DNA from: Antedon mediterranea
Lineage: Eukaryota; Echinodermata; Crinoidea; Comatulida; Antedonidae
Length of the DNA stretch: 64,000 nt
NCBI RefSeq assembly: GCF_964355755.1
Contig: NC_092670.1
Coordinates: 33,529,795-33,593,794, forward strand
Reading direction: 5' to 3'
Program-made: the position numbers and the translations under genes
Shown here: positions 2,779 to 18,182 of the stretch, one piece after another
Layout: every line of letters starts with the position of its first letter
How positions within the stretch are numbered: the stretch's first letter is position 1
The notes under the pieces: generated by a model
Seen by the model: the letters and a program-made list of their open reading frames with translations, nothing else
Databases searched by the model: none
What the model was told of the DNA's origin: nothing

Positions 2779-2784
2779 TATGAA
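2779..2784. repeat. Left target-site duplication TATGAA of the Polinton
   Basis: TATGAA directly precedes the left terminal repeat, which begins AGTAGAGGTAGAGGG. The same hexamer follows the right terminal repeat at 18177-18182. A 6-bp duplication is what Polinton integrases produce. The paralogous intron in gene C has a single TATGAA at 40344-40349 in the matching context ('ctgtatgaagacagaatgt'). Confidence 0.95.
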
Positions 2785-3180
2785 AGTAGAGGTAGAGGGA
2801 ATACAGTCCAAAATGGAAGGTCATACCCCCAGGGCAGAAGTATTCCAGGCCCAAATGGAATGTCATATCCCCAGGGCATATTTCATATTTTCTATTGTTT
2901 AATTTCCTGCTATTGTATTAATAATTAGTGAAAGGTCACTCTTTGTACCAGACCGGAAAGGAATGTCATATCCCTAGGGTATTATATTTTCTATTGTTTA
3001 ATTTCCTGTTATTGTAATATTAATTAGCGAAAGGTCATTCTTTGTTAGAGAAGGGGGTTTGTTATTTTGGCGGGGTTTTCGTTTTGGCCTGGGTTAAAAT
3101 ATATTAGTGAAGGTAGTTCTTTGTTTGAGGATTGCTATTGTTATTTTTAGGCGGTTTGACCATTGCATAGGTCACCTTTG
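2785..3180 (+). repeat. Polinton left terminal inverted repeat
   Basis: Matches the reverse complement of 17749-18176 from the tip (AGTAGAGGTAGAGGGAATAC) to 'gcataggtcacctttg'. The right copy has about 30 bp extra near 'gggttaaaatatattagtg'. The repeat contains two tandem units of about 103 bp, starting near 2857 and 2960. Each runs from 'ggaatgtcatatccc' through 'ttctattgtttaatttcctg' to 'attagygaaaggtca', preceded by a short partial copy ('ggaaggtcataccccc'). Such repeats normally hold the replication origin and terminal-protein site; that role is inferred from the family. Confidence 0.9.
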
Positions 3181-3349
3181 TTTAGTATTTCCTAATTTCT
3201 TTTGTTCATTGTTCTTTTTGTTTGGTACAATAGTTTTGTTTTTTATATTTTAGAGCCGTTTCTTTTTAGACATTGTAAGAAGAGGGACTGCTTTTTGTGA
3301 CCTTTCCAGTTGTTTCGTCTATTTTATCGTAGAGTTACAGTATTTCGCT
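3181..3349 (+). promoter_or_regulatory. Leader of the leftmost Polinton ORF with a TATA-like element
   Basis: AT-rich DNA between the terminal repeat and the first ORF. A TATA-like run ('tttttatattttagagcc', about 3240-3257) lies about 95-110 nt before the ATG at 3350, a spacing similar to that at the PC4 gene. No splice signal or other gene is visible. Confidence 0.35.
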
Positions 3350-3901
3350 ATGTCTGGAAGTATAGATTTTTCGTTAGGTAGCTGTGTAGATACAGTTATA
3401 ATTATTAGCGATGATGAGGAGACTGTTGTTACAGGTAACGATATCGGTGATCGGTACATGCGGACCAATGAGGGTGTACCCGCCGGTGTTGATGAAGGAG
3501 ATGAGAGGGGTAGCCGGGCTACAAGTTGTATATTTACGTACGTAGATGAGGTGGAGAGAGAATTTTGATTGAAATTGGAATATTTAACCAGAGAAGTGTT
3601 TGTTTCTCAAATGTTAAACATGTGTTGGATGTTAAGTAAAGCGGCTTGTTATGGTTGCGAATTTGATAGGCCTGGTCAAAAAGATCATGACTTCTGTTTA
3701 ATGAAATCTCCAGAAGAACAGATTGATTATTTTTATCGGGAGGTTCTGGATAAAGAGTATGTTACAGACGATACCGTGTACAGCGAGCTGAATAAGTACG
3801 AGGAATATTCATTACCACGGTATAGACATTTTGTTTACTTTCTCGTAAATACCTTGACTAATTCAGAGAACCTGTATAAGTTATTGTGTGAGGATATCTA
3901 A
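3350..3901 (+). pseudogene. Polinton left-end ORF interrupted by one in-frame TGA
   Basis: Two adjacent reading frames, 3350-3568 (72 codons) and 3569-3901 (110 codons), lie in the same frame and are separated only by TGA at 3566-3568. The first part is acidic (runs such as ISDDEETVV). The second part starts without an ATG and contains CYGCEFDRPGQKDHDFC, a C-x2-C-x9-H-x2-C arrangement that could bind zinc. Similar Cys/His signatures occur in accessory ORFs of animal Polintons as far as I recall, but I do not recognise a function. The simplest reading is a single gene of about 183 codons with a recent nonsense mutation. Stop-codon readthrough, or separate expression of the 72-aa part, are alternatives. 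Confidence 0.6.
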
Positions 3902-4157
3902 AACGTGTTTCGCACGTGCCACGGAAAAACGATTGACCGGAAAACAAACAGTTAACAATGCTTTAAGCCGCACGTGTTGTAGGGAGACAATTGATAGGAA
4001 AAACAATTAACAACGCTTTAGGCTAATTACTTTTAAAAAGGTACTTCCGTACTCAACTGTATATATATCGGAGCTGATTCAAACGAAATCATTCAGAACT
4101 ATCAACCATCATTCGTTTTACTCTCTCTGTACATCACTCTACATACAATCGCTCAAC
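3902..4157 (+). promoter_or_regulatory. Promoter region of the PC4-like gene with a TATA box
   Basis: A clear TATA box (TATATATAT, 4060-4068, followed by CGG) lies about 90 nt before the ATG at 4158. Upstream there are two imperfect direct repeats, near 3932-3970 and 3990-4022, of the form 'gattgaccggaaaacaaacag...aatgcttta' and 'aattgataggaaaaacaa...aacgcttta'. CACGTG-type words occur at about 3913 and 3972. These look like regulatory repeats; no protein is assigned to them. Confidence 0.5.
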
Positions 4158-4973
4158 ATGAGTTTCAAAAACGTACCTGCTCCAAAATTAGCAATTGGTG
4201 AGAAGGCTCGTAGGACTATGAAAAGAGTTATGGGAAGCTCTAAATCTGACGAGTTAAGCAGTTTTAAAGTACCAACGATGACTTCTAACTCCTCGAAATT
4301 ATTGGATCCTAGAAAATTTTTCAACGGTCAATCTAACGATTTGAGTAAAGCAACGAAGCCGTCAACAAGTAAAAAAACATTTCACTCTGCCTCAGGAATG
4401 AGCGCCAAGGATTATGCCGAAATGACCGGTGCTGAACCAAAGATTACAATAACCTCAACAAACAGGATTTTTCTGTCTGAAAAACGCCATGTAGTGGCCC
4501 AGCGCTGGGGTGAAGTTGTTTATGTTTGCCTCAGAGAATTTTATCAAACGGAAGAAAATGGTGCCTTCAAACCTGGGCCTGTAGGTATTAATTTACCCGT
4601 TCTGTTGTGGCAAAAACTTTTTACCAATATTGATTTAATTCTTCAAGCCCTAGACGATTTGCAAAGAGACATTAACTTGGTGGAGGCAGTAAGAATCCCT
4701 CTTTCGGACACACCTATAATACATGTGATAGTTAGTAACTGGAAAGAAGAGCAGTTTGTATGTATTCGCCGTTGTTACCAGGCCGAAGAAGGAGGCGAGT
4801 TTAAGCCCGGCAAAAAAGGTATAAACCTTCCAAAGAAACAATGGTACAAGTTGATCGAACAACACGGCGAAATACAAAAGATGATTGAAGAGGTTGATAA
4901 TGCAGTTACCGTCGACGGTGGTGTTGACGAAAACGATAACGGAGGACGCAGGCCTAAATCAATGTTGAAATAA
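4158..4973 (+). CDS. Tandem PC4-like ssDNA-binding protein (Polinton accessory gene)
   Basis: 271 aa. Residues 1-100 are a Ser/Lys-rich, probably disordered, basic tail. Two copies of the PC4 (transcriptional coactivator p15) fold follow, at about residues 105-168 and 186-248. Each has the PC4 order: beta strands, an acidic turn, the signature F-K-P-G-x2-G-I-N-L (137-146 and 215-224), then W and a terminal helix. The second copy is closer to the cellular consensus (FKPGKKGINLPKKQW). PC4 proteins bind single-stranded DNA, normally as dimers of one domain each, so two domains in one chain could form an intramolecular pseudo-dimer. In an element replicated by a protein-primed polymerase, a role in coating displaced ssDNA or in late transcription is plausible but inferred. 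It has its own TATA promoter and polyadenylation signal. Confidence 0.75.
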   Translation: MSFKNVPAPKLAIGEKARRTMKRVMGSSKSDELSSFKVPTMTSNSSKLLDPRKFFNGQSNDLSKATKPSTSKKTFHSASGMSAKDYAEMTGAEPKITITSTNRIFLSEKRHVVAQRWGEVVYVCLREFYQTEENGAFKPGPVGINLPVLLWQKLFTNIDLILQALDDLQRDINLVEAVRIPLSDTPIIHVIVSNWKEEQFVCIRRCYQAEEGGEFKPGKKGINLPKKQWYKLIEQHGEIQKMIEEVDNAVTVDGGVDENDNGGRRPKSMLK

Positions 4974-5154
4974 CTTTCTTAACAATGAACTATAAATCAA
5001 ATTATTTGTTTACCGACTTCATTTACAATTTATTTGTATTCTTTTATTTTCACGATTATTCTAATTACTTGCAATTATTTTTAAAAGTATTAGTAAACCA
5101 AATGTATGTAAACTATATTTCCAATTGTACTATATTTGATTCGTGCGGTGTGTT

Positions 5155-5160
5155 AATAAA
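5155..5160 (+). terminator. Polyadenylation signal AATAAA after the PC4-like gene
   Basis: AATAAA about 180 nt after the stop at 4973, in an AT-rich 250-bp gap (4974-5223). The 62-codon open frame in that gap is low-complexity AT translation and I do not consider it a gene. Confidence 0.5.
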
Positions 5161-5223
5161 AAATATTGTTTGATAATTTACAAAAAAAAAATGTTGTTGT
5201 TCTTTTTTTAAAAGTAATGTTTT

Positions 5224-6321
5224 ATGTGTGAGTGTTTCATTTCAACGAGTGAGAGATTTATGGACAGACTATTAAGTTCTACGTACTACGACCCAAAAAA
5301 CCCTGGTAGTTTCGGGGGTGTCGATCGACTTTATACAAACGTGAAAAATGACTCTAATATTTCAAAGACTGACGTTCAAGGCTGGTTAGAAAAACAAGAT
5401 ACGTACACTCTTCATAAACCTATTCAAAGACGTTTTCAGAGAAACAGGGTGTTTGTTACAGCTATTGACGAGCAGTGGGAATTGGATCTCGTTGACTTGT
5501 CTTCTTTAAAAAAGTATAATAAACAAAACACGTTTCTTATTACGTGTATAGACGTACTTTATAGTAAATATGCATGGGTTTTACCTATAAAGAATAAATC
5601 TGCCGATTCTATGCTTACTGCTATGAAAAAACTATTATCTGGAAAAAGAAAGCCATTAAAAATTCACACTGATAAAGGTACAGAGTTTACTAATCGTAAA
5701 GTTCAAGCGCTCCTAAAATCGTTGAATATACATTTTTTCACTACCAATAACGAAACAAAAGCTAGCATCGTGGAAAGATTCAATAGATCGTTGAAAACTA
5801 GGATGTGGAGATACTTTACATCAAAAGCTACTCGAAAATATATAGACGTACTTCCAAAATTAGTATCGAGTTACAATAATTCTAAACACAGATCAATCGG
5901 TATGGCGCCCTCACAGGTTACAAAAGATAACGAACATGAAGTTTGGGAAAATCTGTATAAAATGAAGCAAAAGAAACAAGTTCGGCCCAAGTTCAAAGAG
6001 GGTAATAAAGTGCGAATAAGTAGATACAAAATGCCTTTCGAGAAAGGTTACCTGGCAAACTGGACGGAGGAGATATTTAGGATACGTAAGCGTACCGGTT
6101 CGACCGTTCCCACATATAAACTGGAGGATTGGGACGGCGAAATCATAGAAGGTACTTTTTACGAAAAGGAATTGCAAAAAGTATCCAAAAGTGACAAGGA
6201 TACGTATCGCGTGGAAGAAGTAATAAAGAAAAGAAAACGAGGAGGGAAAACGGAATATTTCGTTAAGTGGTTAGGTTATCCGGCCAAGTTCAACAGTTGG
6301 GTTCAGAATATTGCCCGGTAA
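5224..6321 (+). CDS. Polinton integrase (retroviral-type DDE) with C-terminal chromodomain
   Basis: 365 aa from the first ATG; an alternative start is residue 13 at 5260. Catalyses insertion of the element's ends and generates the 6-bp duplication. The rve core has the DDE residues D88 (WELDLVDL), D150 (HTDKGTEF) and E184 (ASIVERFNRSLK), with 33 residues between the last two. Family-typical blocks follow, such as KTRMWRYFT and YNNSKHRSIGMAPSQV. The last ~40 residues form a chromodomain (YRVEEVIKKR...TEYFVKWLGYP..FNSWV), which may target chromatin marks. The stop is 5 nt before the minor capsid ATG, so translation is probably coupled or from overlapping transcripts. All catalytic residues are present. 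Confidence 0.95.
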   Translation: MCECFISTSERFMDRLLSSTYYDPKNPGSFGGVDRLYTNVKNDSNISKTDVQGWLEKQDTYTLHKPIQRRFQRNRVFVTAIDEQWELDLVDLSSLKKYNKQNTFLITCIDVLYSKYAWVLPIKNKSADSMLTAMKKLLSGKRKPLKIHTDKGTEFTNRKVQALLKSLNIHFFTTNNETKASIVERFNRSLKTRMWRYFTSKATRKYIDVLPKLVSSYNNSKHRSIGMAPSQVTKDNEHEVWENLYKMKQKKQVRPKFKEGNKVRISRYKMPFEKGYLANWTEEIFRIRKRTGSTVPTYKLEDWDGEIIEGTFYEKELQKVSKSDKDTYRVEEVIKKRKRGGKTEYFVKWLGYPAKFNSWVQNIAR

Positions 6322-6326
6322 ACATC

Positions 6327-7103
6327 ATGACGGCTCAGTTTTACGTCCTCTTACCTAGCAACAGTTCCATGAACTGTTTTCCCGAAAATACTCTTACGAG
6401 ATACACGACCAAGCTGGCGGAGCCTATTCATTTGTACGGTGAATGGGAGGTTGGTTTAAGTGAAATTTATTATCCCCACACGTGGTATAACGTCGACGAT
6501 ACCAACAATAAATTGCTGGTGAATATAAGAGATAACGAATTAGAAGAAGAAGACTCGTCGATCGAAATAGCTATAGCCCCAGGGTTTTATTCAACCGGAG
6601 GTAAAGTGATTGATGCTCTTAACGAGGTTTTGGTTTCAAAGTCGTTACAGTCCAAAGTGAGATTTCGGTTCAGCTCAATTAAAGAAGTGATTAACGTGGA
6701 AACCGCCAAAGAAGCATCAGTTACGCTATTAAATGGATTACCCATATTACTCGGTATGGACGAATCATCGATTCCCCGAGGATCTATTACACACGGTTCT
6801 AGACCCGCGTACATTCATCACAGAGTGCCGACGTTGTTTTTGTACACCGATATAATCGAATCTCAACGAGTTGGAGACGCGAGCGTCCCTATTTTGAAAG
6901 CGCTACAAACCAGAGAATCAAACATGAAGAAAAATGTCGGACATACGTTTGCTAGTCCGCAATACAAAAGGGTGGTGAAAAAAGATATCGATACCATCCT
7001 TATAGATATAAGAAACGACACGGGAGAAAAGGTATCATTTCAACGAGGAAGGGTTCTCGCTAAACTACATTTCAGACAGGCCAGATCGTCGTACCTCGTT
7101 TAA
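6327..7103 (+). CDS. Polinton minor capsid protein (penton, single jelly roll)
   Basis: 258 aa from ATG 6327, 5 nt after the integrase stop; the open frame extends upstream only without an ATG. The N-terminus (FYVLLPSNSSMNCFPENTL) and the block LYGEWEVGLSEIYYPHTW are hallmarks of Polinton/adintovirus minor capsid proteins. The C-terminus has DTILIDIRNDTGEKVSF followed by a final strand ending LHFR. Such proteins form the capsid vertices. It sits directly upstream of the pVI-like protein and the major capsid protein, the usual morphogenesis block. Confidence 0.85.
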   Translation: MTAQFYVLLPSNSSMNCFPENTLTRYTTKLAEPIHLYGEWEVGLSEIYYPHTWYNVDDTNNKLLVNIRDNELEEEDSSIEIAIAPGFYSTGGKVIDALNEVLVSKSLQSKVRFRFSSIKEVINVETAKEASVTLLNGLPILLGMDESSIPRGSITHGSRPAYIHHRVPTLFLYTDIIESQRVGDASVPILKALQTRESNMKKNVGHTFASPQYKRVVKKDIDTILIDIRNDTGEKVSFQRGRVLAKLHFRQARSSYLV

Positions 7104-7127
7104 AAAAACAACAACAAATAAATAAAG

Positions 7128-7514
7128 ATGGGGGCAGATGCTTACGAAGATTACTACGTCAGACAGGCTGGAGGTATCGACATACCGGTGTTCCAAGGGT
7201 CGTACAATCAAAGAGGGTTCGGGTTGGGAGGTATCTTGTCCGGTCTCTTTAAACAGGCTGTACCGCTGCTAAAGAAAGGTGCAAAGGCTCTCGGAAAACA
7301 AGCATTGCGCATGGGTGGTGAATTAGTGGGAGATGTTCTGAGCGGTAAAAACGTTAAACAAGCTGCAAAACGTAGATTTACTCAGGCGGGTCAACGTATC
7401 GTTTCCCAAAATGGTAACGGTAGGGTGAATAAAAAGAGAAAACGTAAGCGTAAAGGCATCAGTCGATCGAACGCAAAGAGAGTAAGAAGATCCTCCGATA
7501 TATTCGATATCTAA
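7128..7514 (+). CDS. Small basic pVI-like virion protein
   Basis: 128 aa. A Gly-rich hydrophobic/amphipathic stretch (about residues 30-72: GFGLGGILSGLFKQAVPLL and onward) is followed by a strongly basic tail with KKRKRKRKG and RVRRSS. That layout resembles adenovirus pVI and core-protein precursors, which combine a membrane-active helix with DNA or capsid binding. Position between penton and major capsid genes supports a virion role. The TTG-GGA-GGT-ATC region could hold a maturation cleavage site for the adenain-like protease, but I cannot fix one. The gene ends 3 nt before the major capsid ATG. Identity rests on layout and context, not on a strong sequence match. Confidence 0.6.
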   Translation: MGADAYEDYYVRQAGGIDIPVFQGSYNQRGFGLGGILSGLFKQAVPLLKKGAKALGKQALRMGGELVGDVLSGKNVKQAAKRRFTQAGQRIVSQNGNGRVNKKRKRKRKGISRSNAKRVRRSSDIFDI

Positions 7515-7517
7515 AAA

Positions 7518-8840
7518 ATGGCTTTTGTACACAATCACTCGTGCGAGTGTTTAAAATCGGAATTGGACTTGTTTTCTGTACCGCCGACACAGACTAGTAT
7601 AACCAAAGGACAATGGGTGCAATATCACCCTTTCAACAGCATCACCGACGTGGGCCCCTTGCAATTCAACATACAAGGGTCTAGCGAGGAATACATGGAT
7701 TTGTCGCAGACGATGCTTAATGTTAAACTAAAAATTACTAAACAAGACGGAACCGATCTCCAGCCCGCCGATCCGGTAGGCCCTGCCAATTTACTTTTGC
7801 AATCATTGTTTAGCGAAGTTGACGTTTCTTTGAACGAGAGATTGATTACCCCTTCGACAAATACTTATTCGTATAGGGCATTAATTGAAACATTACTGAC
7901 TTATGGATCCGATGCCAAGAATACACACCTCACGGGTGGGTTTTTTCATAAAGACACGGCCGGTAAAATGGATGTAGCTGACCCTACGCTAGCCGAAAAT
8001 GCGGTGAATAAAGGTCTTAAAAAACGGGCTCAATACATTGGCGGTAGTCGTTTTGTCGACTTGATTGGACCTATTCATTGCGATATATTTTTCCAAGATC
8101 GGATGATGCTCAACGGTGTAGATGTCAAAATTAAACTGCATCGAAGTAAAAACGCATTTAGTCTCATGTCTTCAGATGCCGCGGCCGGTTTTAAGATCCG
8201 CCTGGAAGACGCGTCCTTGTTTGTTCGCAAGGTCCGCCTGAACCCGTCTATCGCGCTAGCCCACGCAAAAGCTCTGGAACGCGGTCCGGCCAAATACCCG
8301 CTGCGTCGCGTTGAGGTCAAGACATTAACTATACCGCGCGGTAATCTATCGTTTACGAGGGAATCGCTGTACAACGGTAATCTACCGAAACGCCTGGTTG
8401 TAGGACTGGTGACCACCGAAGCATTCAACGGTAGCTACGAGAAGAATCCCTACAATTTTCAACATTTCAACACCAATTTCCTGGCTCTATATATTGACGG
8501 TGAGCAAGTACCGTGGAAACCGTTAAAACCAACGTTCGAAGACGGAGGCAACTACATGCTGGCGTATCAGAGTCTATTTTCGGGTTCTAACACGTTGTTC
8601 CAGGATACCGGAAATCAGATTTCTAGAGACGATTATCCTAAAGGCTATTCGTTGTTTGCTTTTGACCTGACTCCCGATTTGGCAAATGCCGGACATTTTA
8701 ATCTAATTCGGCAGGGAAATATACGTTTAGAAATTCAGTTTTCTACGGCTTTGACCGAGACCATCAACATTTTAGTTTATTCAGAATTTGATTCAATCAT
8801 AGAAATTGACAAGTCTCGTAACGTAATTATAGATTTTTAA
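7518..8840 (+). CDS. Polinton major capsid protein (double jelly roll)
   Basis: 440 aa, the expected size for Polinton major capsid proteins. The N-terminal block, with SVPPTQTSITKGQWVQYHPF, LQFNIQGSSEEYMDLSQTML and LFSEVDVSLNERLITPS, is the conserved start of the first jelly roll. The central block IGPIHCDIFFQDRMMLNGVD and the C-terminal FNLIRQGNIRLEIQFS are also family-typical. Trimers of this protein form the hexons of the icosahedral shell. It is intact and overlaps nothing; the protease starts 2 nt after its stop. Codon composition is noticeably more G+C-rich than in the flanking host exons. Confidence 0.92.
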   Translation: MAFVHNHSCECLKSELDLFSVPPTQTSITKGQWVQYHPFNSITDVGPLQFNIQGSSEEYMDLSQTMLNVKLKITKQDGTDLQPADPVGPANLLLQSLFSEVDVSLNERLITPSTNTYSYRALIETLLTYGSDAKNTHLTGGFFHKDTAGKMDVADPTLAENAVNKGLKKRAQYIGGSRFVDLIGPIHCDIFFQDRMMLNGVDVKIKLHRSKNAFSLMSSDAAAGFKIRLEDASLFVRKVRLNPSIALAHAKALERGPAKYPLRRVEVKTLTIPRGNLSFTRESLYNGNLPKRLVVGLVTTEAFNGSYEKNPYNFQHFNTNFLALYIDGEQVPWKPLKPTFEDGGNYMLAYQSLFSGSNTLFQDTGNQISRDDYPKGYSLFAFDLTPDLANAGHFNLIRQGNIRLEIQFSTALTETINILVYSEFDSIIEIDKSRNVIIDF

Positions 8841-8842
8841 TT

Positions 8843-9367
8843 ATGAACACGATACAACTATTGAGGTTAATTAAATCAGATCCGTTGGCTAGTGGATACT
8901 TTCGAGGGGTGTACCCGTCTGACTTGTTACCTTTAGGGCATACGGGATATCCTAGAGCTTACATAGCAAACGTTGAGCCTAGCAATCAAAACGGTTCGCA
9001 TTGGGTAGCTTTCTTTTTTAACAACTTAAACAAAGGTGAATTTTTCGATTCTTTTGGGAACCCCCCAAATTACTATAGTAATCATTTTGTTAATTTTCTC
9101 GATAACTCTGTAGAAAGTTGGACATTTAACGATAAAGCGTTACAAGCGCCCTTGTCTACGGTATGCGGACAGTATTGTATTTTTTATATTCTTCATAAAT
9201 GTAGAAGAGTGGATACGTCCACGATAGTAAATATGTTTGGTAAAGATAAACCATCCAATGATTGGTTCGTCAATGATTTTGTAAAACGTCGATACGATGT
9301 TAACTTACCCGTATACGATAGTGAATATATTAAAGTACAATTTGTCAAAATGTTATTGAATGCGTAG
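8843..9367 (+). CDS. Adenain-like cysteine protease (capsid maturation)
   Basis: 174 aa, C5/Ulp1-type fold. The catalytic set is visible: H53 in GSHWVAFFF, D69 in EFFDSFG, and C108 in STVCGQYCIFY, with Q101 a candidate oxyanion residue. In adenoviruses and Polintons this enzyme cleaves capsid and core precursors during maturation; the pVI-like and minor capsid proteins encoded just upstream are the likely substrates. It is the last gene of the left-hand + strand block, and a polyadenylation signal follows its stop at once. Confidence 0.92.
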   Translation: MNTIQLLRLIKSDPLASGYFRGVYPSDLLPLGHTGYPRAYIANVEPSNQNGSHWVAFFFNNLNKGEFFDSFGNPPNYYSNHFVNFLDNSVESWTFNDKALQAPLSTVCGQYCIFYILHKCRRVDTSTIVNMFGKDKPSNDWFVNDFVKRRYDVNLPVYDSEYIKVQFVKMLLNA

Positions 9368-9515
9368 TAAATAAAAATTGTTTTTTTTTTAAAAATGGAT
9401 ATGTTTTGGACGTTTTATTTATCGAGCGACTACAACAACAAATTCGAGTTTATTTTATTTATTTCTTTTTTATTCAATTCCTTTCCTCATTATAGTACAT
9501 AAAGATTAATGTTTT
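9368..9515. terminator. Convergent terminator region between the + and - strand Polinton blocks
   Basis: AATAAA on the + strand at 9370-9375 ends the capsid/protease block. T-rich stretches read on the - strand give AATAAA-type signals around 9449-9475 for the three-gene - strand block. No ORF lies here. Confidence 0.6.
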
Positions 9516-10286
9516 TTAAAAATTTAACCATTTAGGTTTAGGTTGTCTAGCTGAACGCCTCTTGGCAGGCGCTCGAAAGGTAAGTTTTTCATCCTCATCA
9601 TCATCGTCATCGAGGTCATAATCCTCCTCATTCTTTCGTTTAGGTAGTGCGTGAGGAGGTGTACCACTCGATTTAATTCTTTGTAAGGTACGACGTCTCG
9701 TCGGATTTCCAATCAAACTTTCAGGGGTGTTCAATTTCGCCAATACCGTTATAAAATCCCTCCAGCCTATAGGTTCAAATCCTTTCTTTTCTTGTATTAT
9801 ATCTTTTGTCAAATCGAGTAAATTACTCCCCTTTACCATTTGTCCTTCGATTAGTAGTTCACCGTATCTTGACCAATCAATTACTCCCATCTTCCGGTAA
9901 CGGTCTAGCCGGTCCAGAAATGTTTTTGTTTTGGATTTCAACGATGAGGGCATACTTTGTAGTATTTCTTTAGATATAGAGTCCGTATAATCTTCTTTAG
10001 ATTCTGCGCCATTTTCGTTTATTTCAACGTTCCCCGTTTGTTGTACGTTCAAGCTCATAGGTGAAGGGTTATTTACGGGTTTCTCTTTATTTAAATATCG
10101 TTGAAGTACTTGATTGTACATGGTAATTTTATCGTAATCGTGTAAGTCATCCCTTTCGAGTATACCCTTCATAGAATTATCTAAACCAGAAGTGATTGTC
10201 TCGTGATTTTTCTCGTAACGTTTACTGTACAAAGTCGTATTTGCCAGTTCCTGAGGTATCAATACCATTTTCTTGGTATGCTGCAT
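9516..10286 (-). CDS. Conserved Polinton protein of unknown function (256 aa)
   Basis: The layout matches a family found next to the packaging ATPase in many animal Polintons. An N-terminal KMVLIPQEL segment and a helical region with YNQVLQRYL are followed by a compact domain (about residues 100-185) with MPSSLKSKTKTFLDRL and GSNLLDL. The C-terminal tail holds a long acidic run (EEDYDLDDDDDEDE) followed by a basic patch (PAKRRSARQPK). Function is unknown; the mixed acidic/basic tail suggests nucleic-acid or protein contacts in the virion. The ATG overlaps the stop of the upstream gene (TAATG). Met7, at 10268, is a possible alternative start. Confidence 0.7.
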   Translation of the reverse strand: MQHTKKMVLIPQELANTTLYSKRYEKNHETITSGLDNSMKGILERDDLHDYDKITMYNQVLQRYLNKEKPVNNPSPMSLNVQQTGNVEINENGAESKEDYTDSISKEILQSMPSSLKSKTKTFLDRLDRYRKMGVIDWSRYGELLIEGQMVKGSNLLDLTKDIIQEKKGFEPIGWRDFITVLAKLNTPESLIGNPTRRRTLQRIKSSGTPPHALPKRKNEEDYDLDDDDDEDEKLTFRAPAKRRSARQPKPKWLNF

Positions 10287-10612
10287 TATTTCAATAGTAA
10301 ACTACCCAATGTTTGTAGAATCGGTTGTAATATAAGACCGAGGAAGCCGCCCTTTTGAATAAGTAAACGTTTTCTCTTGAGAGGCGAAATGCTTTTATTG
10401 GTAATATCACGCATGTGTTTCTTGTACCGAGCCAACTTCTTCTTGTGAGCGTTGGATACTTGCACTCGACCTTTTAAAACATTCATTGAGCATTCGCACA
10501 AAGCCGTCACCAGTTGATCGTCCGCGTTTTCCAAGATAATTTTTCTTTGACGCGGTGAACAGTGGGCTAGGAAACGAATAGTTTCAGCGTTCTTTTTGAT
10601 ACGTTTCGACAT
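10286..10612 (-). CDS. Small conserved basic Polinton protein
   Basis: 108 aa from ATG 10612. The longer open frame to 10684 would put an unrelated hydrophobic leader on it and overlap the ATPase by 23 nt, so I prefer the inner start. The N-terminal half is helical with RFLAHCSPRQRKIILENA and a CECSMNVLKGRV block; the C-terminus has RYKKHMRDITNK and the hydrophobic end KGGFLGLILQPILQTLGSLL. The order 'basic helices, then GGFL-hydrophobic tail' recurs in Polinton and related insertions. Function is unknown. It lies between the ATPase and the 256-aa protein in a tight - strand cluster. Confidence 0.65.
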   Translation of the reverse strand: MSKRIKKNAETIRFLAHCSPRQRKIILENADDQLVTALCECSMNVLKGRVQVSNAHKKKLARYKKHMRDITNKSISPLKRKRLLIQKGGFLGLILQPILQTLGSLLLK

Positions 10613-10661
10613 GATGTTGGTAAACAGGTAAATGAATAAATAGAACGGTACAGGCTGCGTT

Positions 10662-11369
10662 TTATATTCTAGGCACGTAAACAAAGTGATTGGTTTTTGA
10701 AAATATGTTACTTCTAACCCTCATTTCCTCGGGGGTATTTGCTTTTAGATCGATTAAAAGAAAACCGTACGGTACGCGGGTAGCGTCTTCAAAAGCCTCC
10801 TGTAAAAAACGTCCTTTACCGGGGTACATTTGTTTAGATAGATTAGCTATTTGTGATTTATCCCGAGGGTTTTTAAATAGTATTATGTAGTGAGCGTTTA
10901 AAGTGATGGTGCGGATTTCTTTAGAACCGTAAAAAAAGTTTTGCATAATGAATATAACCGAAATGTTTCTATGATGCGATCCCTTTGTAAACATGTTTAC
11001 TACTCTTTTATCGCGGCTACACTCGGTCATTAAATCATCGATGATTACTAAATGGTTTTTTGACGGTTCCATCGTTTCTATCGAATCCATAGGTATCCCC
11101 TCTATAAATTGAATGTTGTTAATAGACCCGCTCAGTTCGGTGAAAAGGGGCTGATATTCCCCATAACACCACGTGATGTCATCGAACGGCTTGTCGAAAT
11201 AATTACTTTCCAATAACTGCTTCACGAAATATGATTTTCCCGATGAGGTCGGTCCGCTAATTACGGCGGTGAAGGGGGTTACCAGTACACACGTCATCTT
11301 CAGTTTCAATGAGTCATAGCTTTTGTATATCGGTATTTTATAACGAGGGGGGTTCCTTATCCACATCAC
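10662..11369 (-). CDS. Genome-packaging ATPase (FtsK/HerA superfamily)
   Basis: 235 aa. Walker A is GPTSSGKS (residues 39-46) and Walker B is HLVIIDDLM (about 106-114). A downstream sensor-like segment, HHRNISVIFIMQNFF, holds a conserved Gln-Asn. This is the A32-like motor that pumps DNA into the capsid in Polintons, virophages and related viruses. It is first in the - strand cluster and diverges from the Bcl-2-like gene across a 161-bp intergenic region. Length is typical and nothing is missing. Confidence 0.93.
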   Translation of the reverse strand: MMWIRNPPRYKIPIYKSYDSLKLKMTCVLVTPFTAVISGPTSSGKSYFVKQLLESNYFDKPFDDITWCYGEYQPLFTELSGSINNIQFIEGIPMDSIETMEPSKNHLVIIDDLMTECSRDKRVVNMFTKGSHHRNISVIFIMQNFFYGSKEIRTITLNAHYIILFKNPRDKSQIANLSKQMYPGKGRFLQEAFEDATRVPYGFLLIDLKANTPEEMRVRSNIFSKTNHFVYVPRI

Positions 11370-11530
11370 TCTATTTTAAAAACTGTCAACTAATGAAAGA
11401 GAGAGAGAGGGCCGATAATATAAACCAATAGGAGCTTAATAATGATAATTACGTTAACAAATGATTGTATATCAAAACCTAAAAAATCAATTCCAACGTC
11501 ATTAGCGTCTGTATACTAGTAGAGAGAGAA
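11370..11530. promoter_or_regulatory. Divergent promoter between the ATPase and the Bcl-2-like gene
   Basis: Reading toward the ATPase, TTTATATTATCGG (- strand of 11412-11424) lies about 45-55 nt before its ATG. It echoes TATATATATCGG at the PC4 gene. A CCAAT word is at 11424-11428. Toward the Bcl-2-like gene there are weaker TATA-like words ('tgtatatc', about 11466; 'tgtatac', about 11511). GA-rich runs flank both starts. Confidence 0.4.
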
Positions 11531-12042
11531 ATGGCAGATTTGGAAAAACTGACTCTATCGTACATTGAATATAAATTAACGGGGGTAGTTGTGTGGGACT
11601 CCCCAATCCTTTATAGTACTATTCGCCTTTGTAACGAGGTGGAGAAAAAGTATGGTTTGATTGCCTTGTGTAAAGACATTACTACGGAGACGTTGGATAG
11701 TGTGTTGAAAGAAATGATGATAGACCAAAATATACACGTCGGTAGACTCGTGACAGGAATTTCAGTGTGCGCACGTGTTGCGATGCAGTGTGATACTGAT
11801 TTAGAATTAGAAATCGTTAAACGCGTATCCTGCGAATTTGTGAAGGAAAAGTTTTCTTTATTGGAACTTTGTAACGACAGTGATTTGGTAAGTAAATTTC
11901 TTTTTCTTGTTATTCTCATTTTAGTAATTAAGTGTTTTTTATATTATCTTTTATTTATTATTATTATTATTATTTTTTATAGGAACTTGTTCTGTGTAGT
12001 AAGAAGCTAGGAATTAATAGAGCATGGTACTTGATCGACTGA
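11531..12042 (+). CDS. Bcl-2-like protein, two exons (Polinton accessory gene)
   Basis: Exons 11531-11887 and 11983-12042 join in phase 0 across a 95-bp intron with consensus ends (gtaagt...tttttatag), giving 138 aa. The layout follows the Bcl-2 fold. An N-terminal BH4-like helix (LTLSYIEYKLTG) is followed by a BH3-like helix (STIRLCNEVEKKY, with C-N where cellular proteins have G-D). Next come a linker helix (TLDSVLKEMMID) and a BH1-like segment (NIHVGRLVTGISVCARVAM) with the invariant Gly-Arg. A final helix follows (LELEIVKRVSCEFVKEKF). BH2 is not convincing and no C-terminal anchor is present in the spliced form. The unspliced frame runs on to a TAG at 12008-12010 and would add a hydrophobic tail. 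Bcl-2 homologues in animal DNA viruses block mitochondrial apoptosis; the same role here is inferred from motif order. Confidence 0.6.
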
Positions 12043-12333
12043 CTAGTAGGTATTTGTATAGCCTTGCTGGAACAAACTGTTTGGTGACATTGGATAAATA
12101 AAATATTTAAACAAGGAAGAGGAGAGATTACAATATTTATATTGGATAGGATAAAATAAAAATACAGTCAACACTACGCATGTCTTTTGTTGTTGTTGTT
12201 GTCGTCGTCATCGTCGTCGTCTACGTTAAGAAACAGACAAGTATATAATATTATAAACAAGTACGGTGTATACATTTATTTCTCGTAAAACAAAATTATG
12301 ATAAAGAAAATAATTATTTACAAAAATAAATTT
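12043..12333. other. Non-coding gap after the Bcl-2-like gene
   Basis: Contains AATAAA at 12097-12102, a polyadenylation signal for the Bcl-2-like gene. A trinucleotide-rich run (ttg/tcg repeats) follows at about 12187-12223. I see no gene. Confidence 0.5.
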
Positions 12334-12713
12334 GAAACGGTAACGATATAAGAATTCAAAAGGAAAAAATATTTAAATTAAAATTACAAAATATATTTGC
12401 TTTAAAAAAATAGAAACGGTATCGACTTTATAAACTTTATAAACAAAATTGAAAATGTATAAAAAATATTTACATTAAAACTTGAAATATAATTTGCTTA
12501 AACTACAAAAAAGGAAACGGTAACGACATAAGAATTCAAATGTAAAAAAATATTTAAATTAAAAATACAAAATATATTTACTTAATCTACTAACAGAGAA
12601 ACGGTACCGACTTTATAAACAAAATTAAAAGAAAATTTGATTAAAAACATGTATAAAAATATTTACATTAAAACTACAAATATATTTTGCTTAAGCTACA
12701 AAAAAGGAAACGA
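12334..12713. repeat. Degenerate tandem repeats with a GAAACGGTANCGA core
   Basis: Five copies of GAAACGGTAACGA-like sequence start at 12334, 12413, 12514, 12598 and 12707 (the last one decayed). They are followed by similar AT-rich spacers ('aaaaatattta..attaaaa..tacaaaatatatttgctta'). Spacing alternates about 80 and 105 bp, so the higher-order unit is about 184 bp. The block lies just downstream of the PolB stop. The core resembles CGGTACCG at 17383-17390 upstream of PolB. Confidence 0.7.
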
Positions 12714-12820
12714 ATTTATAAAGGAAATTGAGTGCATGAAATTACATAAAAAGTAACAATTTATTATTTATATATATAAAAAAAAAAGTAAGTTATATTT
12801 TAAAAGAAAAAGAGATGAAA

Positions 12821-12826
12821 TTTATT
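12821..12826 (-). terminator. Polyadenylation signal of PolB
   Basis: TTTATT on the + strand reads AATAAA on the - strand, 9 nt past the PolB stop codon. Confidence 0.5.
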
Positions 12827-12834
12827 GCAGTGAT

Positions 12835-15800
12835 TTACCAAACATAACCGTAAGGAACTGTACGATAATTTTCGATAATAATTCTTTTATCGTACACGAT
12901 TCGATAGTCTTTAGTCGATGTTTCGTTGACTATCTTACGTGTTTTTGGCTTGCGCGTTATACGATTCTTCTCAACTGTCTTAATTGTATTAGGACCAATA
13001 CCTCTTACCATATTGGAGACGGTGTCAAAGTTAATTTTCTGAGCGTTTGTAAAATTAAGGGTAAAACCTTTAACTTTACAAACGGTCTTCCCTGTATCCA
13101 ATTTATAGGCGTAGTTCTTAGGCCCCCCAGAAACAAAGGACTCGATGTACTTACCGTCTTTAGGGTCGACCTCGGTCGTTAACTGACCCAAGTAGTCGCC
13201 CAGGGGAGGGTCCCAAACCCCGGGTTTTGACACGAAGATTACGCTGTCGGTATCGTAATACAGGACACGTTCCTGTAATTTCTCCAACAGTTCGTATAAT
13301 TTTAAACGCGCTAGCGCTGTGGTAAATGCGGCAATGACAACGTTAACCTTTCGGTTAACTTCAACAAATTGTTCCTCGTCTTCGTATTTTATTTCAGCCA
13401 AATCATCATTAACAAAATTTAGATCATGAACGACTACCCGTGGGTTCGATAAAATATCGTAAACCTCGTTAGGATCTTGCGTATATTTAATTCTCGTGAG
13501 ATTTTCACGCTGACCAAATTTACCCCAAAAACTATTTAGCATTAATTTGGCCAGAGATCGAAGCCCAGGATTGTACGCAATGTCGTCATGATTCAAGTCG
13601 ATACCTTCTACGGTTCGATAGTCCGAAATATATTTTTGTTTATCTTCGGGCGTTTTACACCATTCAGGCCAACCCGAAGCTTCTTGTTTCAATTTTAAAA
13701 ATGTGTTAATGTAAGAGGCAAATAGACCGGACGAGGGAGAATCTGCAGAGTACGCGCTTTTATTTTTAAAGTGCCATACTACGTGAACTTTACGTATCTC
13801 GTACCCAACCTCCACGGCTTTAGCGACCTCGATCGTTGCCCAAGAACCTGTAAATTCTCTATCTGTACCAGAATGATTGCAAGCGGTTTGTTGTTGAGAA
13901 TCGACGCATGTTCTACAGAGAGCAAACATTAATTTACCGTTTGATCTATAAGGTAAGACTGGATGGAATAAATTTTTAGGCGCTTCGATAGTACACTTTA
14001 TCAAACCGAAATACTCGTTGATATCTGTGGACATGTCTTTGCGATCATCGATTTCAGGATGTCCTACGGGGTAGGTACCGTATTTATTTACATAAGGGTA
14101 CAAGGAAGTATAATCGATGTAATTAATTTCTTCACCCGGTTTTACCTTATAGAACAAACAACTGGCATTAGTCCTCCCACCGAAAAACGCGTCTCTTGGA
14201 TTCAAAGTTTGCCTAATGAAAGGAACTTTGGAGACGATAGATTTAATGTTAGGGGCCAGCGATTGTTTGATCCGTTTCCATTCGTGTTCCCAAATTTCGA
14301 CGTACTCAAAATCTGGAAATTGCTCCTTCAGAAACCGTGTTTTCTTGCTTGTTTTGACAAAGCATTCCAACATGGCTTCGTTAGTGAAGGGGTTAATGGA
14401 ATCGGATCTATAACATTCTTGGCACCCGTGGAACAAACAGCCCATAAATTCAAAAATAATTTTGTTTTCTAAACATGCGCCGTCGACAAAGTAAGGCCCA
14501 AACATTTTTTCCCCTCCATTTCTCGCATGATGGATAAAGACCCCCCTTTTATGCGACTCGTAGCACAGCCATTCCATGCTAGAGTGAGAATGGTTAACGG
14601 TTGTCATATACCCTGATGGTGGAAATAAAGCGATGGAGGATGGTTTTAAAAAATTTCTAGAAAAGACGTGATTACACGCCGAGGCAATTGTCATTAAATT
14701 ATTTGAAAAGGGGTCAACGCCTCCGAGTAGAGGGTTTTTCGGCGATGTAGTTACTTTCAAAAAAAGATGCCTAAAAGTAAGACAACACTTTCTGAGAATA
14801 TCCACATCGCTGATGCAATACTCGACGAGTTCTTTTTGGAGATTGAAAATTTGATTAGTTTCAATTTTCTGATTATACCATTTAAAGAATGATTCTCGGC
14901 CTGAAGTAGTCATTTTATCGGGGGAATAGGTGGAAGAATCGGGATAAGGACCTACGTAATTTTTATTTTCTAAAGTATTGAAATAATGAGGAAAGTAACC
15001 TTTTTTTAGCTCGGCGATGCCAAAAGTTTTGGGTAATTTGGATAGAGACATGGGTAGAAATGAAAGGGAATCAATGAATCGGATACTCGTTTCTTTAACC
15101 TTAATTGAAATAGGTTTACCACCGCGAGCAATAATATCTGGGACAATACAGTTTTTGTATAGGTACTCGAGCACGAAGTAACTATCGTAGCCCTGGAGGT
15201 TGTGAGCGATACACGTAATGTTATGATTATATTTGTATTCGTTAAAAACGTAATTGCAAAAATCTACGCATGCAGTCTCCCCGTGAAAAGTCATTGATTT
15301 CTCCCCACACACGTCGCACTCGTCAGAGTCATTAGCACCATCGATACAATTAAGACAAGTTTTTTGAAGAACGCATAAATTTGGTTTGTGTTCGCCAGTT
15401 TCTTGCGTGCATTCAAAATCAAAAAAGAAATATTTAGTGACAGCCCTTTTTTGGTCCTCCTGATTCTTAAACTTTTTTTCAGTATGTTTAGGGGCTACAA
15501 CCGGTTCCATGTAGCATTGATGATCGTATGAAACGAAAGTCCGACAAATTCTACAAAAACGGTTTTGACAATTGTGATCTTTTTGAATAATCCTATCACA
15601 AGTTGTACAATTTTTAATTTTGTCACATACTGAAACTTTTTTAGAATCAGGAGATTTTTTATGATTGGTGAAACATTGCTGGTGTTTAAAAAACCTATTG
15701 CACTCTTTACACTCTACAGTACTATTTACACGTGTGTTAATGGAAGGGTCACAATCGTTGTGCTTACAAAGCACACACGTATATTGGCAATTGTGAGAAT

Positions 15801-17359
15801 GTTTGTGCTTATAGCCCTTGAAACATTTGTCACAGTAATAATCTACTTTTAAAAAACCTGTTATTGTTGATATGAAATCGTAATGATTATCATGATGGTA
15901 AAGATAAATCTGCTTCTTACAATAATCGCCGCTAAAAATTACAGAATTTAAATTGTCTTTGGAAAGGACAATAATTTGATAATTTGGTAATTTGGATTGC
16001 ATCTTTTTTAATTCCTCGATGCCGCAAGCTTGCTCCCTAACCCCCGAATCTCTAAGTAAATGAAGGGCGGCTGTTTTTTGTTGGCCTCGACCTCTCCTAA
16101 CATTATTCCACCTAGTCACGTTGTTAATTTTGTCTTCGATCATGGAAATACCCGTAACAATAGCGCGTGCGCAGCAGATAGTTTCGTTACCATCATTCTT
16201 AATCTTAATTACACTTCTAGAATTAAACAGTTTGTCGATACCGTTTCTTCTATGGCCCCCACCCCTAGGCATTCTCATATGGAGAACGTTAAACTTAAAT
16301 TTTTTATTAATAAATATATCAGTTTTGGACTGAAGGACCTTCATGATGGCTGCAAAAATAACATCAGCTGTCAGATGGGCCCTCCGTCCAAAAGGAATAG
16401 AGATAGGTGTATCCAACCCCTCAGCCTGAATAACTATCCGAAGCATATCGTCGACATGCACGTTAATGCAAAGATTATCGACGACATGCTCGAAAATTCT
16501 ATAAAGAGTGGGCAGGAACACCTCTAAACTTAAATGGTCTACATTAAAAAAATTAACTACAAAATCGCTAATAGTAGCGTTAAAACGTTGATTAAACCTA
16601 TCGACTAATTTATTTATTGTACAAAAATGACTTAAATCTACCTCGTCAAGGTTCAATTCATCGCTGTCATTATCGTCAATTTCTTCTTCTTCGGCTATCC
16701 TTGATCTTTTCCTGTTGGCTCCTTTCCCGTATTGTACCGGTACAGGCTGAAATAAAAAAGTATAACGGTAAAGAAATAGAAATAAAGCGCTTTAATACAA
16801 CAACAATAGTAAAGAAAATAAAATGATAGTTACCTCATCAATAACAGAAGACTCCTGAGAATCACTATCCTCGACACTTTCCCTCATTTTCAAACATTTG
16901 GTGTGTGCACCAATACCATACTAAAGAAAAAATTTAAAAAAAAAATTAGAAAGGAAACGCGTTGGTACTGTAAACACAGAAACACGTTCGTTTACACAAG
17001 CTACTCTACGAGTTATATACGGTAATGAAAAAAAATGATTACGTTAAAAATATATTAAACAAAAAAACACTTACTTCTACGTGATCAATTATTAAACTTT
17101 CAGACAGATCTTGAACAATCTCTATGGCGTTATCACATATATCCGTAAGAGAAAGACTACCGGTTTCAGAAATACTTTGACTGACCGGTAAATCAAAGTC
17201 CTGGTCTCCAAACACAAAATCCTCTAGTAAACCCACATCTGGGATATTATCGTCAGATAAATTAGCGCGCGATAGATTAACTATAGCGTCAACAGCTCTT
17301 TGACACTCGATAAATAAACTATCGTTAGAATCAGTTGAGGAAGAAGCGAATTGAGACAT
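12835..17359 (-). CDS. Protein-primed type B DNA polymerase, three exons
   Basis: Predicted exons are 17075-17359, 16834-16920 and 12835-16746, all joined in phase 0, giving 1427 aa. The introns are 154 and 87 bp, with gtaagt...ctttag and gtaact...tttcag ends. The main exon alone has no ATG before a conserved region, which supports the spliced model. The exonuclease domain has Exo I FDFE (15412-15423), Exo II AHNLQGYDS (15181-15207) and Exo III YCISDVDIL (about 14794-14820). The polymerase domain has motif A DYTSLYP (14089-14115), motif B LMLNSFWGKFG (about 13510-13545) and motif C YYDTDSV (13234-13260). A Cys/His-rich zinc-binding region lies at about 15500-15840, and an FHGC-type insertion at about 14410-14450. 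Exon 1 is Ser/acidic-rich. All catalytic aspartates are present. It replicates the element by protein priming at the terminal repeats. Confidence 0.93.
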
Positions 17360-17748
17360 TGCAAAACTTTGAAGAAAAAAATCGGTACCGAAACTTTGAA
17401 GAATTAATAAATGAATGATGAACTAAACAAGTAACACACGGTTATTAAAACCTTCCCGCGACGATTACGATTGGTCAGACATTCTTTAGTAATTAGGAAG
17501 CCCCGCCCACAATAGTGACCAGTAGATTTAGTCTTCACCCGAAAACACTGAGGGAGGAAACGGATTAATTAATTAATACTACACAAAGGTGACCATTGTA
17601 GTGGATAAGTCGACAAAATAATAACAATAGTACTCCTCAAACAAAGAATTACCTTCACTAATTAAAATCAAATTACATTATTTTTTAACCTTCCAATGAG
17701 CTTTACACTATTATGATTGGTCAAACACTCTTTAATAATTAGGAAACT
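17360..17748. repeat. Sub-terminal region with degenerate tandem repeats, and PolB upstream region
   Basis: No gene. CGGTACCG at 17383-17390 lies just upstream of the PolB start. From about 17440 two diverged copies of a unit of roughly 180-230 bp run into the terminal repeat. The segment 'gattggtca.acattctttartaattagga' occurs near 17471 and 17714. 'caaaggtgacc...tcctcaaacaaagaa.taccttcactaat' occurs near 17585 and 17749. The terminal repeat has thus been partly duplicated inward. Confidence 0.6.
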
Positions 17749-18176
17749 CAAAGGTGACCTATGCAATGGTCAAACCGCCTAAAAATAACAATAGCAATCC
17801 TCAAACAAAGAACTACCTTCACTAATATATTTAAAATACAAATTCATCACCAACTACAATTATAACCCAGGCCAAAACGAAAACCCCGCCAAAATAACAA
17901 ACCCTTCTCTAACAAAGAATGACCTTTCGCTAATTAATATTACAATAACAGGAAATTAAACAATAGAAAATATAATATATACCCTGGGGATATGACATTC
18001 CTTTCCGGTCTGGTACAAAGAATGACCTTTCACTAATTATTATTACAATACCTGGAAATTAAACAATAGAAAATATGAAATATGCCCTGGGGATATGACA
18101 TTCCTTTCGGGTCTGGAATACTCCTGCCCTGGGGGTATGACCTTCCATTTTGGACTGTATTCCCTCTACCTCTACT
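17749..18176 (-). repeat. Polinton right terminal inverted repeat
   Basis: Inverted copy of 2785-3180, with the same internal tandem units and an extra AT-rich segment of about 30 bp at roughly 17829-17865. Divergence from the left repeat is low, consisting of scattered substitutions and one indel. Confidence 0.9.
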
Positions 18177-18182
18177 TATGAA
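18177..18182. repeat. Right target-site duplication TATGAA of the Polinton
   Basis: Perfect copy of 2779-2784, immediately after the right terminal repeat ending ...CCTCTACCTCTACT. Host intron sequence resumes after it ('ggtcgaatgtttatgaaagag') and matches gene C from about 40350. Confidence 0.95.

Follow-up and report, generated by a model that had tools for sequence, protein, structure and literature searches.

A divergent Bcl-2-like gene with a predicted intron, carried by a Polinton in the feather star Antedon mediterranea

Viral homologues of Bcl-2 are well known. Viral proteins with the Bcl-2 fold mostly protect cells, and some poxvirus proteins of this fold dampen innate immune signalling. 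The BH2 motif is optional in viral members, and a C-terminal hydrophobic anchor is not required in all members of the family. Adenoviruses, which encode the E1B 19K protein, have a protease type and a capsid lineage in common with Polintons. The viral trick of delaying cell death is known; a Polinton as its carrier is unusual.

Several mobile or virus-like elements come close to the system described here. Adintoviruses are Polinton-class viruses with homologues of anti-apoptotic genes; their setting is vertebrate, and these homologues are not named Bcl-2 in that text (the string 'bcl' is absent). A giant Gypsy-like retrotransposon of planarians carries a BCL-2 region as part of a polyprotein (PMC6431247), whereas the crinoid gene is a separate, predicted-spliced gene in a DNA element. 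Accessory regions are described for vertebrate Mavericks in PMC8097293, a text from which 'bcl' is absent; neither 'bcl' nor apoptosis is mentioned in PMC8363768 or PMC11071308. In the literature searched, no Polinton is described as carrying a Bcl-2 gene; the founding paper on adintoviruses lay outside that scope, and an earlier description is possible.

Here we describe such a gene in the crinoid (feather star, echinoderm) Antedon mediterranea. An earlier note on this DNA had reported a two-exon, Bcl-2-like frame in a Polinton and had proposed that it encodes an apoptosis inhibitor. The observation is confirmed, and its Bcl-2 interpretation is largely supported. The best explanation, to which we assign a probability of roughly 0.65, is that the gene encodes a divergent Bcl-2 homologue, captured together with its intron by the Polinton from an animal Bcl-2 gene, and that the product would delay apoptosis in a replicative phase.

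The window, meaning the whole stretch of 64,000 nucleotides that was analysed, holds the Polinton at positions 2785-18176. The element is 15,392 bp long, with inverted repeats of about 0.4 kb and the ends AGT...ACT. Its left terminal inverted repeat (2785..3180) begins AGTAGAGG and its right one (17749..18176) terminates CCTCTACT. A 6-bp target-site duplication, TATGAA, is perfect on both flanks (2779..2784 and 18177..18182). An rve integrase with a chromodomain (5218..6321, plus strand) and a family B DNA polymerase (12835..16791, minus strand; DNA_pol_B_2, E 9.9e-46) exceed their Pfam cut-offs, as do, narrowly, an adenovirus-type protease (8822..9367, plus strand; Peptidase_C5, 21.8 bits against a cut-off of 21.3) and a Pox_A32-type packaging ATPase (10662..11375, minus strand; 25.8 bits against 22.8). 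Terminal inverted repeats, AGT...ACT ends, 6-bp duplication, polymerase, integrase, ATPase, and protease are features by which Polintons are recognised, and with them the earlier identification of the element is borne out. The product of 7515..8840 (plus strand) is a candidate double jelly-roll major capsid protein (hexon): its UniRef relatives, in Porites lobata rows, are named Capsid protein or Major capsid protein, and it is 100% identical (rounded; one residue differs) to an annotated Antedon mediterranea protein. Another crinoid, Anneissia japonica, has a relative of this capsid protein at 81%. Searches of IMG/VR with the Bcl-2-like protein, hexon, ATPase, and polymerase returned no relatives. 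The Polinton also holds an open reading frame (ORF) at 4011-4973 with two Pfam matches to the PC4 (transcriptional coactivator p15) domain (E 3.1e-23), and two minus-strand ORFs adjoining the ATPase (9516-10301 and 10286-10720) that have no Pfam match at cut-off. The genes PM and PZ of vertebrate Mavericks stand in the same order as these two ORFs (PMC8097293).

The Bcl-2-like gene occupies the plus strand of the slot between ATPase and polymerase. It consists of exon 1 (11531..11887, 119 codons), a predicted phase-0 intron (11888..11982, GTAAGT...TAG, 95 nt), and exon 2 (11983..12042, 19 codons and TGA), and its spliced product would be 138 amino acids long. The frame first reported at 11531..12042 thus has correct coordinates, with exons and intron as given. 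Exon 1 encodes, at the places and in the order originally described, a BH4-like stretch (about residues 4-17), a BH3-like stretch (residues 28-41), and a BH1-like stretch (residues 67-80). A TATAAA upstream (11419..11424, plus strand) and an AATAAA downstream (12097..12102, plus strand) are matches to consensus only.

The gene has many relatives in the same genome. A search of the host genome with the Bcl-2-like protein, exon by exon, gave 117 rows, and the first 59 exon 1 rows among them served to count types. Type A, that of the window (97-99% identical), comprises 10 rows; the matched exon 1 is free of stops in every one, and an ATPase match adjoins all 10. Type B (87-88%) comprises 5 rows, again without stops (0/5), one of which (L015) lacks a donor. 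Type C (54-64%) is the most abundant, with 42 rows, 32 of them near full length; 26 of these 32 are free of stops and 6 contain them. Exon 2 pieces and more divergent copies, for the most part broken, make up the rest.

Splicing of the gene is predicted from conserved sites and from the position of an intron in host genes. Of 30 loci, 28 could be parsed into exons: exon 1 is 357 nt long in 27 of them, each having an in-frame donor, and 348 nt long in one; the other 2 loci did not parse. The introns of 28 copies range from 89 to 128 nt and are 52-77% T, and the frame that would extend exon 1 into the intron is open in 16 and stopped in 12. An unspliced reading as the main product was rejected, given T-rich introns of varying length and the stop in 12/28. 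Translated without splicing, 11888-11982 of the window would extend the product by a hydrophobic tail, which the high T content of the intron probably explains. Base identity was likewise rejected as proof of splicing: intron identity matches or tops that of exon 1 between types A and B (94% with 11 gap columns, against 91% with none) and between A and C (80% with 39 gap columns, against 73% with none). Exon 1 is supported over the intron only because gaps are absent from exon 1.

Exon 2 differs among versions. In the window it provides no hydrophobic tail (best 19-residue Kyte-Doolittle mean 0.34) and terminates earlier than in type B. Among 14 type C copies, several of which are paired arms of one palindrome, 9 have a tail scoring 2.1-2.5, 3 score 0.71, and 2 are too short to score.

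Profile searches place the product closest to Bcl-2. Pfam Bcl-2 (PF00452) is the best family for types A, B, and C, with E values of 1.9e-4, 1.5e-3, and 1.8e-4; the family search proposed earlier therefore gave the expected top family, but the score of the window version, 22.4 bits, like those of B and C (19.5 and 22.4), falls below the curated cut-off of 31.4. With five shuffles of the sequence and its reversal as queries, the best result was E 0.14, to an unrelated family. An NCBIfam match to UreG at E 0.0014 shows that weak matches can mislead, so the case rests on fold, profile comparison, and intron position. When the Bcl-2 HMM was run over the 354-Mb host genome, 46 of the 60 rows were copies of the Polinton gene, which are not independent of one another; the other 14 were 7 rows over the cut-off, which are host genes, 4 that belong to a different repeat-borne gene, and 3 more, of which one adjoins a host row.

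Profile-profile comparison (hhalign) of 15 exon 1 proteins with six host Bcl-2 exons, a check that had been suggested for this gene, gave a family match at E 7.9e-5 and probability 61, over residues 7-110, in which the BH4-, BH3-, and BH1-like stretches match in order. BLASTP against the host exon L048 gave 23% identity at E 0.001. The BH4-like helix is present, with YIEYKL aligned to host FITYKV. The BH3 stretch (LxxxGD) aligns and keeps the conserved Glu; its Gly-Asp, whose absence the earlier note had already remarked on, is replaced by Cys-Asn, and host Bcl-2 genes vary here too (GDE, GQE, GTE). At BH1 (NWGR) Gly-Arg is kept and Trp has become Val; across the 15 sequences Arg72 is invariant and Gly71 nearly so. 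The doubt first expressed over BH2 (WxxxGGW) was justified, as no GGW stands at the end of exon 1. Against the PDB the single sequence had no match, and the profile had FPV039 as its best (E 0.32) with an unrelated UBR4 chain next (0.61). In a search of 5.8 billion proteins, the 18 candidates drawn by the single sequence included none within E 10, and the 823 drawn by the 15-sequence alignment yielded none either.

The predicted fold of exon 1 is of the Bcl-2 type. AlphaFold models the window version as a six-helix bundle (pLDDT 80.6, pTM 0.77) and a type C version, 63% identical to it, with the same six helices (pLDDT 83.4, pTM 0.79); both jobs were built on the same 15 sequences and are not independent, and one of the five models in each was poor (44.9 and 46.4). 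Foldseek against the PDB listed 50 matches for each model, and all 50 of 50 belong to the Bcl-2 family at probability 0.99-1.00; among those listed, TM by query length is 0.59-0.72 for the window version and 0.46-0.78 for type C, and no E value is below 0.001 for either model. The structural check proposed at the outset thus came out in favour of the Bcl-2 bundle over exon 1, with six predicted helices. The poxvirus proteins FPV039 and CNP058 are both among the 50 matches listed for the window model, at about 16-22% identity in the fold alignments, and come from a different virus class. In a viral fold library the leading named matches are the adenovirus E1B small T antigen (E1B 19K), an F1L homologue, and LCDV3 Bcl-2, with unrelated proteins also present at lower ranks and low probability; the E1B protein is the top viral match at E 0.014, with a TM of only 0.52.

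The intron offers a comparison of another kind. Six host Bcl-2 exons were read, out of seven rows over the cut-off, and in all six the BH2 tryptophan is the last codon before the intron (TGG|GT), in phase 0. The distance from the first BH1 residue to the intron is 54 codons in the host (6/6) and 52 in the Polinton gene, in phase 0 in both, and a cysteine 20 residues into BH1 is common to the window and 4 of the 6 host exons. From this correspondence we infer that the Polinton intron is the host BH2 intron. BH2 would then seem missing because the terminal part of exon 1 diverged and the intron kept its place. The host genes (L048-L053) resemble the Polinton version in their helical core, the order BH4, BH3, BH1, and a phase-0 intron at the equivalent position; they differ from it at about 14-23% identity (those aligned), and the Polinton version, housed in a mobile element, is without the BH2 GGW and the BH1 Trp. 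An equivalent intron points to capture of an intron-bearing animal gene, and suggests DNA or unspliced RNA as its source rather than spliced mRNA. It is a rare direct sign of how a gene was taken; in the literature searched, nothing on intron position in Bcl-2 genes was found. That an unrelated small helical protein resembles Bcl-2 by chance, a reading to which the sub-threshold Pfam score and the similarly weak UreG match lend themselves, is very improbable where fold, profile comparison, genome-wide HMM result, and intron position concur.

We propose the following course of events for a homologue of this kind. A Polinton would have acquired an animal Bcl-2 gene together with its intron. In a replicative, virus-like phase, the Bcl-2-like protein would act in the cytosol or on mitochondria, where the groove beside Gly71-Arg72 of BH1 may bind the BH3 helices of host death activators or Bax/Bak-type proteins, such that apoptosis is delayed until DNA or particles are made. 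The hydrophobic end of most type C relatives could anchor the protein in membranes; the window version lacks such an end.

By analogy, an anti-apoptotic action of the predicted protein is likely; it is favoured because viral proteins of the same fold mostly protect and because this one has a BH4-like helix and retains the BH1 Gly-Arg. These last two features, together with listed PDB matches that are apoptosis regulators of the Bcl-2 family, make it unlikely that the protein has taken up a function outside apoptosis, for example in dampening innate immune signalling, a role that would suit the degenerate BH3, the lost BH2, and an A52R-like family protein among the viral fold matches (rank 22, probability 0.91). 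A pro-death member akin to Bax, Bak, or Bok, which might release progeny or kill competitors, is quite improbable: structures of BAX, BAK, and BOK do occur among the 50 matches listed for the type C model, but they are few among mostly pro-survival ones, the fold cannot separate the two classes, and known viral Bcl-2 proteins are mostly protective.

Exon 1 was also compared among copies by the Nei-Gojobori method, with pairs that are not independent and with L010 (indel), L015 (no donor), L017 (no start found), and L030 (stop) left out. Between types, dN/dS is 0.25 for A-C (117 pairs, dS 0.92), 0.28 for B-C, and 0.27 for A-B; within types it is 0.14 for B-B, 0.37 for A-A, and 0.68 for C-C. These codon comparisons are a clear sign of purifying selection between lineages, and the value within type C is not clearly below 1. 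The latter, along with the stops in 6/32 near-full-length type C rows and the early end of the window version relative to type B, would fit a captured gene that was once functional and is now decaying passenger DNA; the ratios of 0.27 (A-B) and 0.14 (B-B) and an exon 1 free of stops in 10/10 A and 5/5 B rows, the donorless L015 included, make this improbable. Versions about 62% identical, with many copies in one genome and with or without a hydrophobic tail, make the function of the gene testable by comparison.

The Bcl-2-like gene is accessory, not core, in Polintons. In two further Polinton groups (four rows) the ATPases are 75% and 82% identical to that of the window, and near none of those four rows is there a Bcl-2-like match at E up to 1. 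In two of the four the slot between ATPase and polymerase was read, and it contained neither a tblastn match at E up to 1 nor an ORF of >100 codons; in one of the two, L046, the polymerase itself is damaged.

Type C elements are much reduced. They combine one fragment each of the integrase and the ATPase with the 3' end of the polymerase and a Bcl-2-like gene that is mostly open, and are often mirrored. Such palindromic non-autonomous Polinton derivatives (L031-L036 and L041-L045) lie on host contigs 1, 3, 4, 6, and 8; the arms of one, which covers about 12.6 kb of contig 3, are 99.6-99.9% alike. Short divergent ATPase rows contain stops in 20 of 26 cases, and the other 6 are about 40 residues or less. 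A 276-codon ORF at the left end of the derivatives, without an assigned family, is also open, and the proposal that the Bcl-2-like gene is the sole gene kept in them was dropped for that reason. The palindromes could have arisen by strand switching in protein-primed replication. One might tentatively extend the capture reading into a lineage history, which we hold to be doubtful: a Polinton lineage would have taken an intron-containing Bcl-2 gene from animal chromosomal DNA, its shrunken palindromic derivatives would have kept that gene and the left-end ORF with only scraps of integrase, polymerase, and ATPase, and the survival gene, as cargo on satellites, would protect the germ or infected cell.

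In a virus-like replicator a Bcl-2 homologue is easily accounted for; in a mere transposon it is not. Its presence in this element thus favours the view that Polintons of an invertebrate deuterostome pass through a viral phase.

Two further loci on the host contigs, L038 (C3:31222000-31231900) and L040 (C2:34225000-34234900), have inverted arms of about 4 kb, 98.6-98.8% alike, and hold broken, more distant copies of the Bcl-2-like gene; relatives of the 320-codon ORF of the window are present in L040 as well. Another Bcl-2-like ORF, distinct from the Polinton gene (Pfam Bcl-2, E 1.2e-4), occurs in four genome rows: at 3670-4056 of L055 (C3:17163000-17170000), and at C3:25212503, C4:16634277, and C9:14042663. 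This ORF possibly belongs to another virus-derived repeat. Its neighbours in L055 include a death-domain ORF (E 2.5e-10) and a 740-codon ORF that matches no Pfam family.
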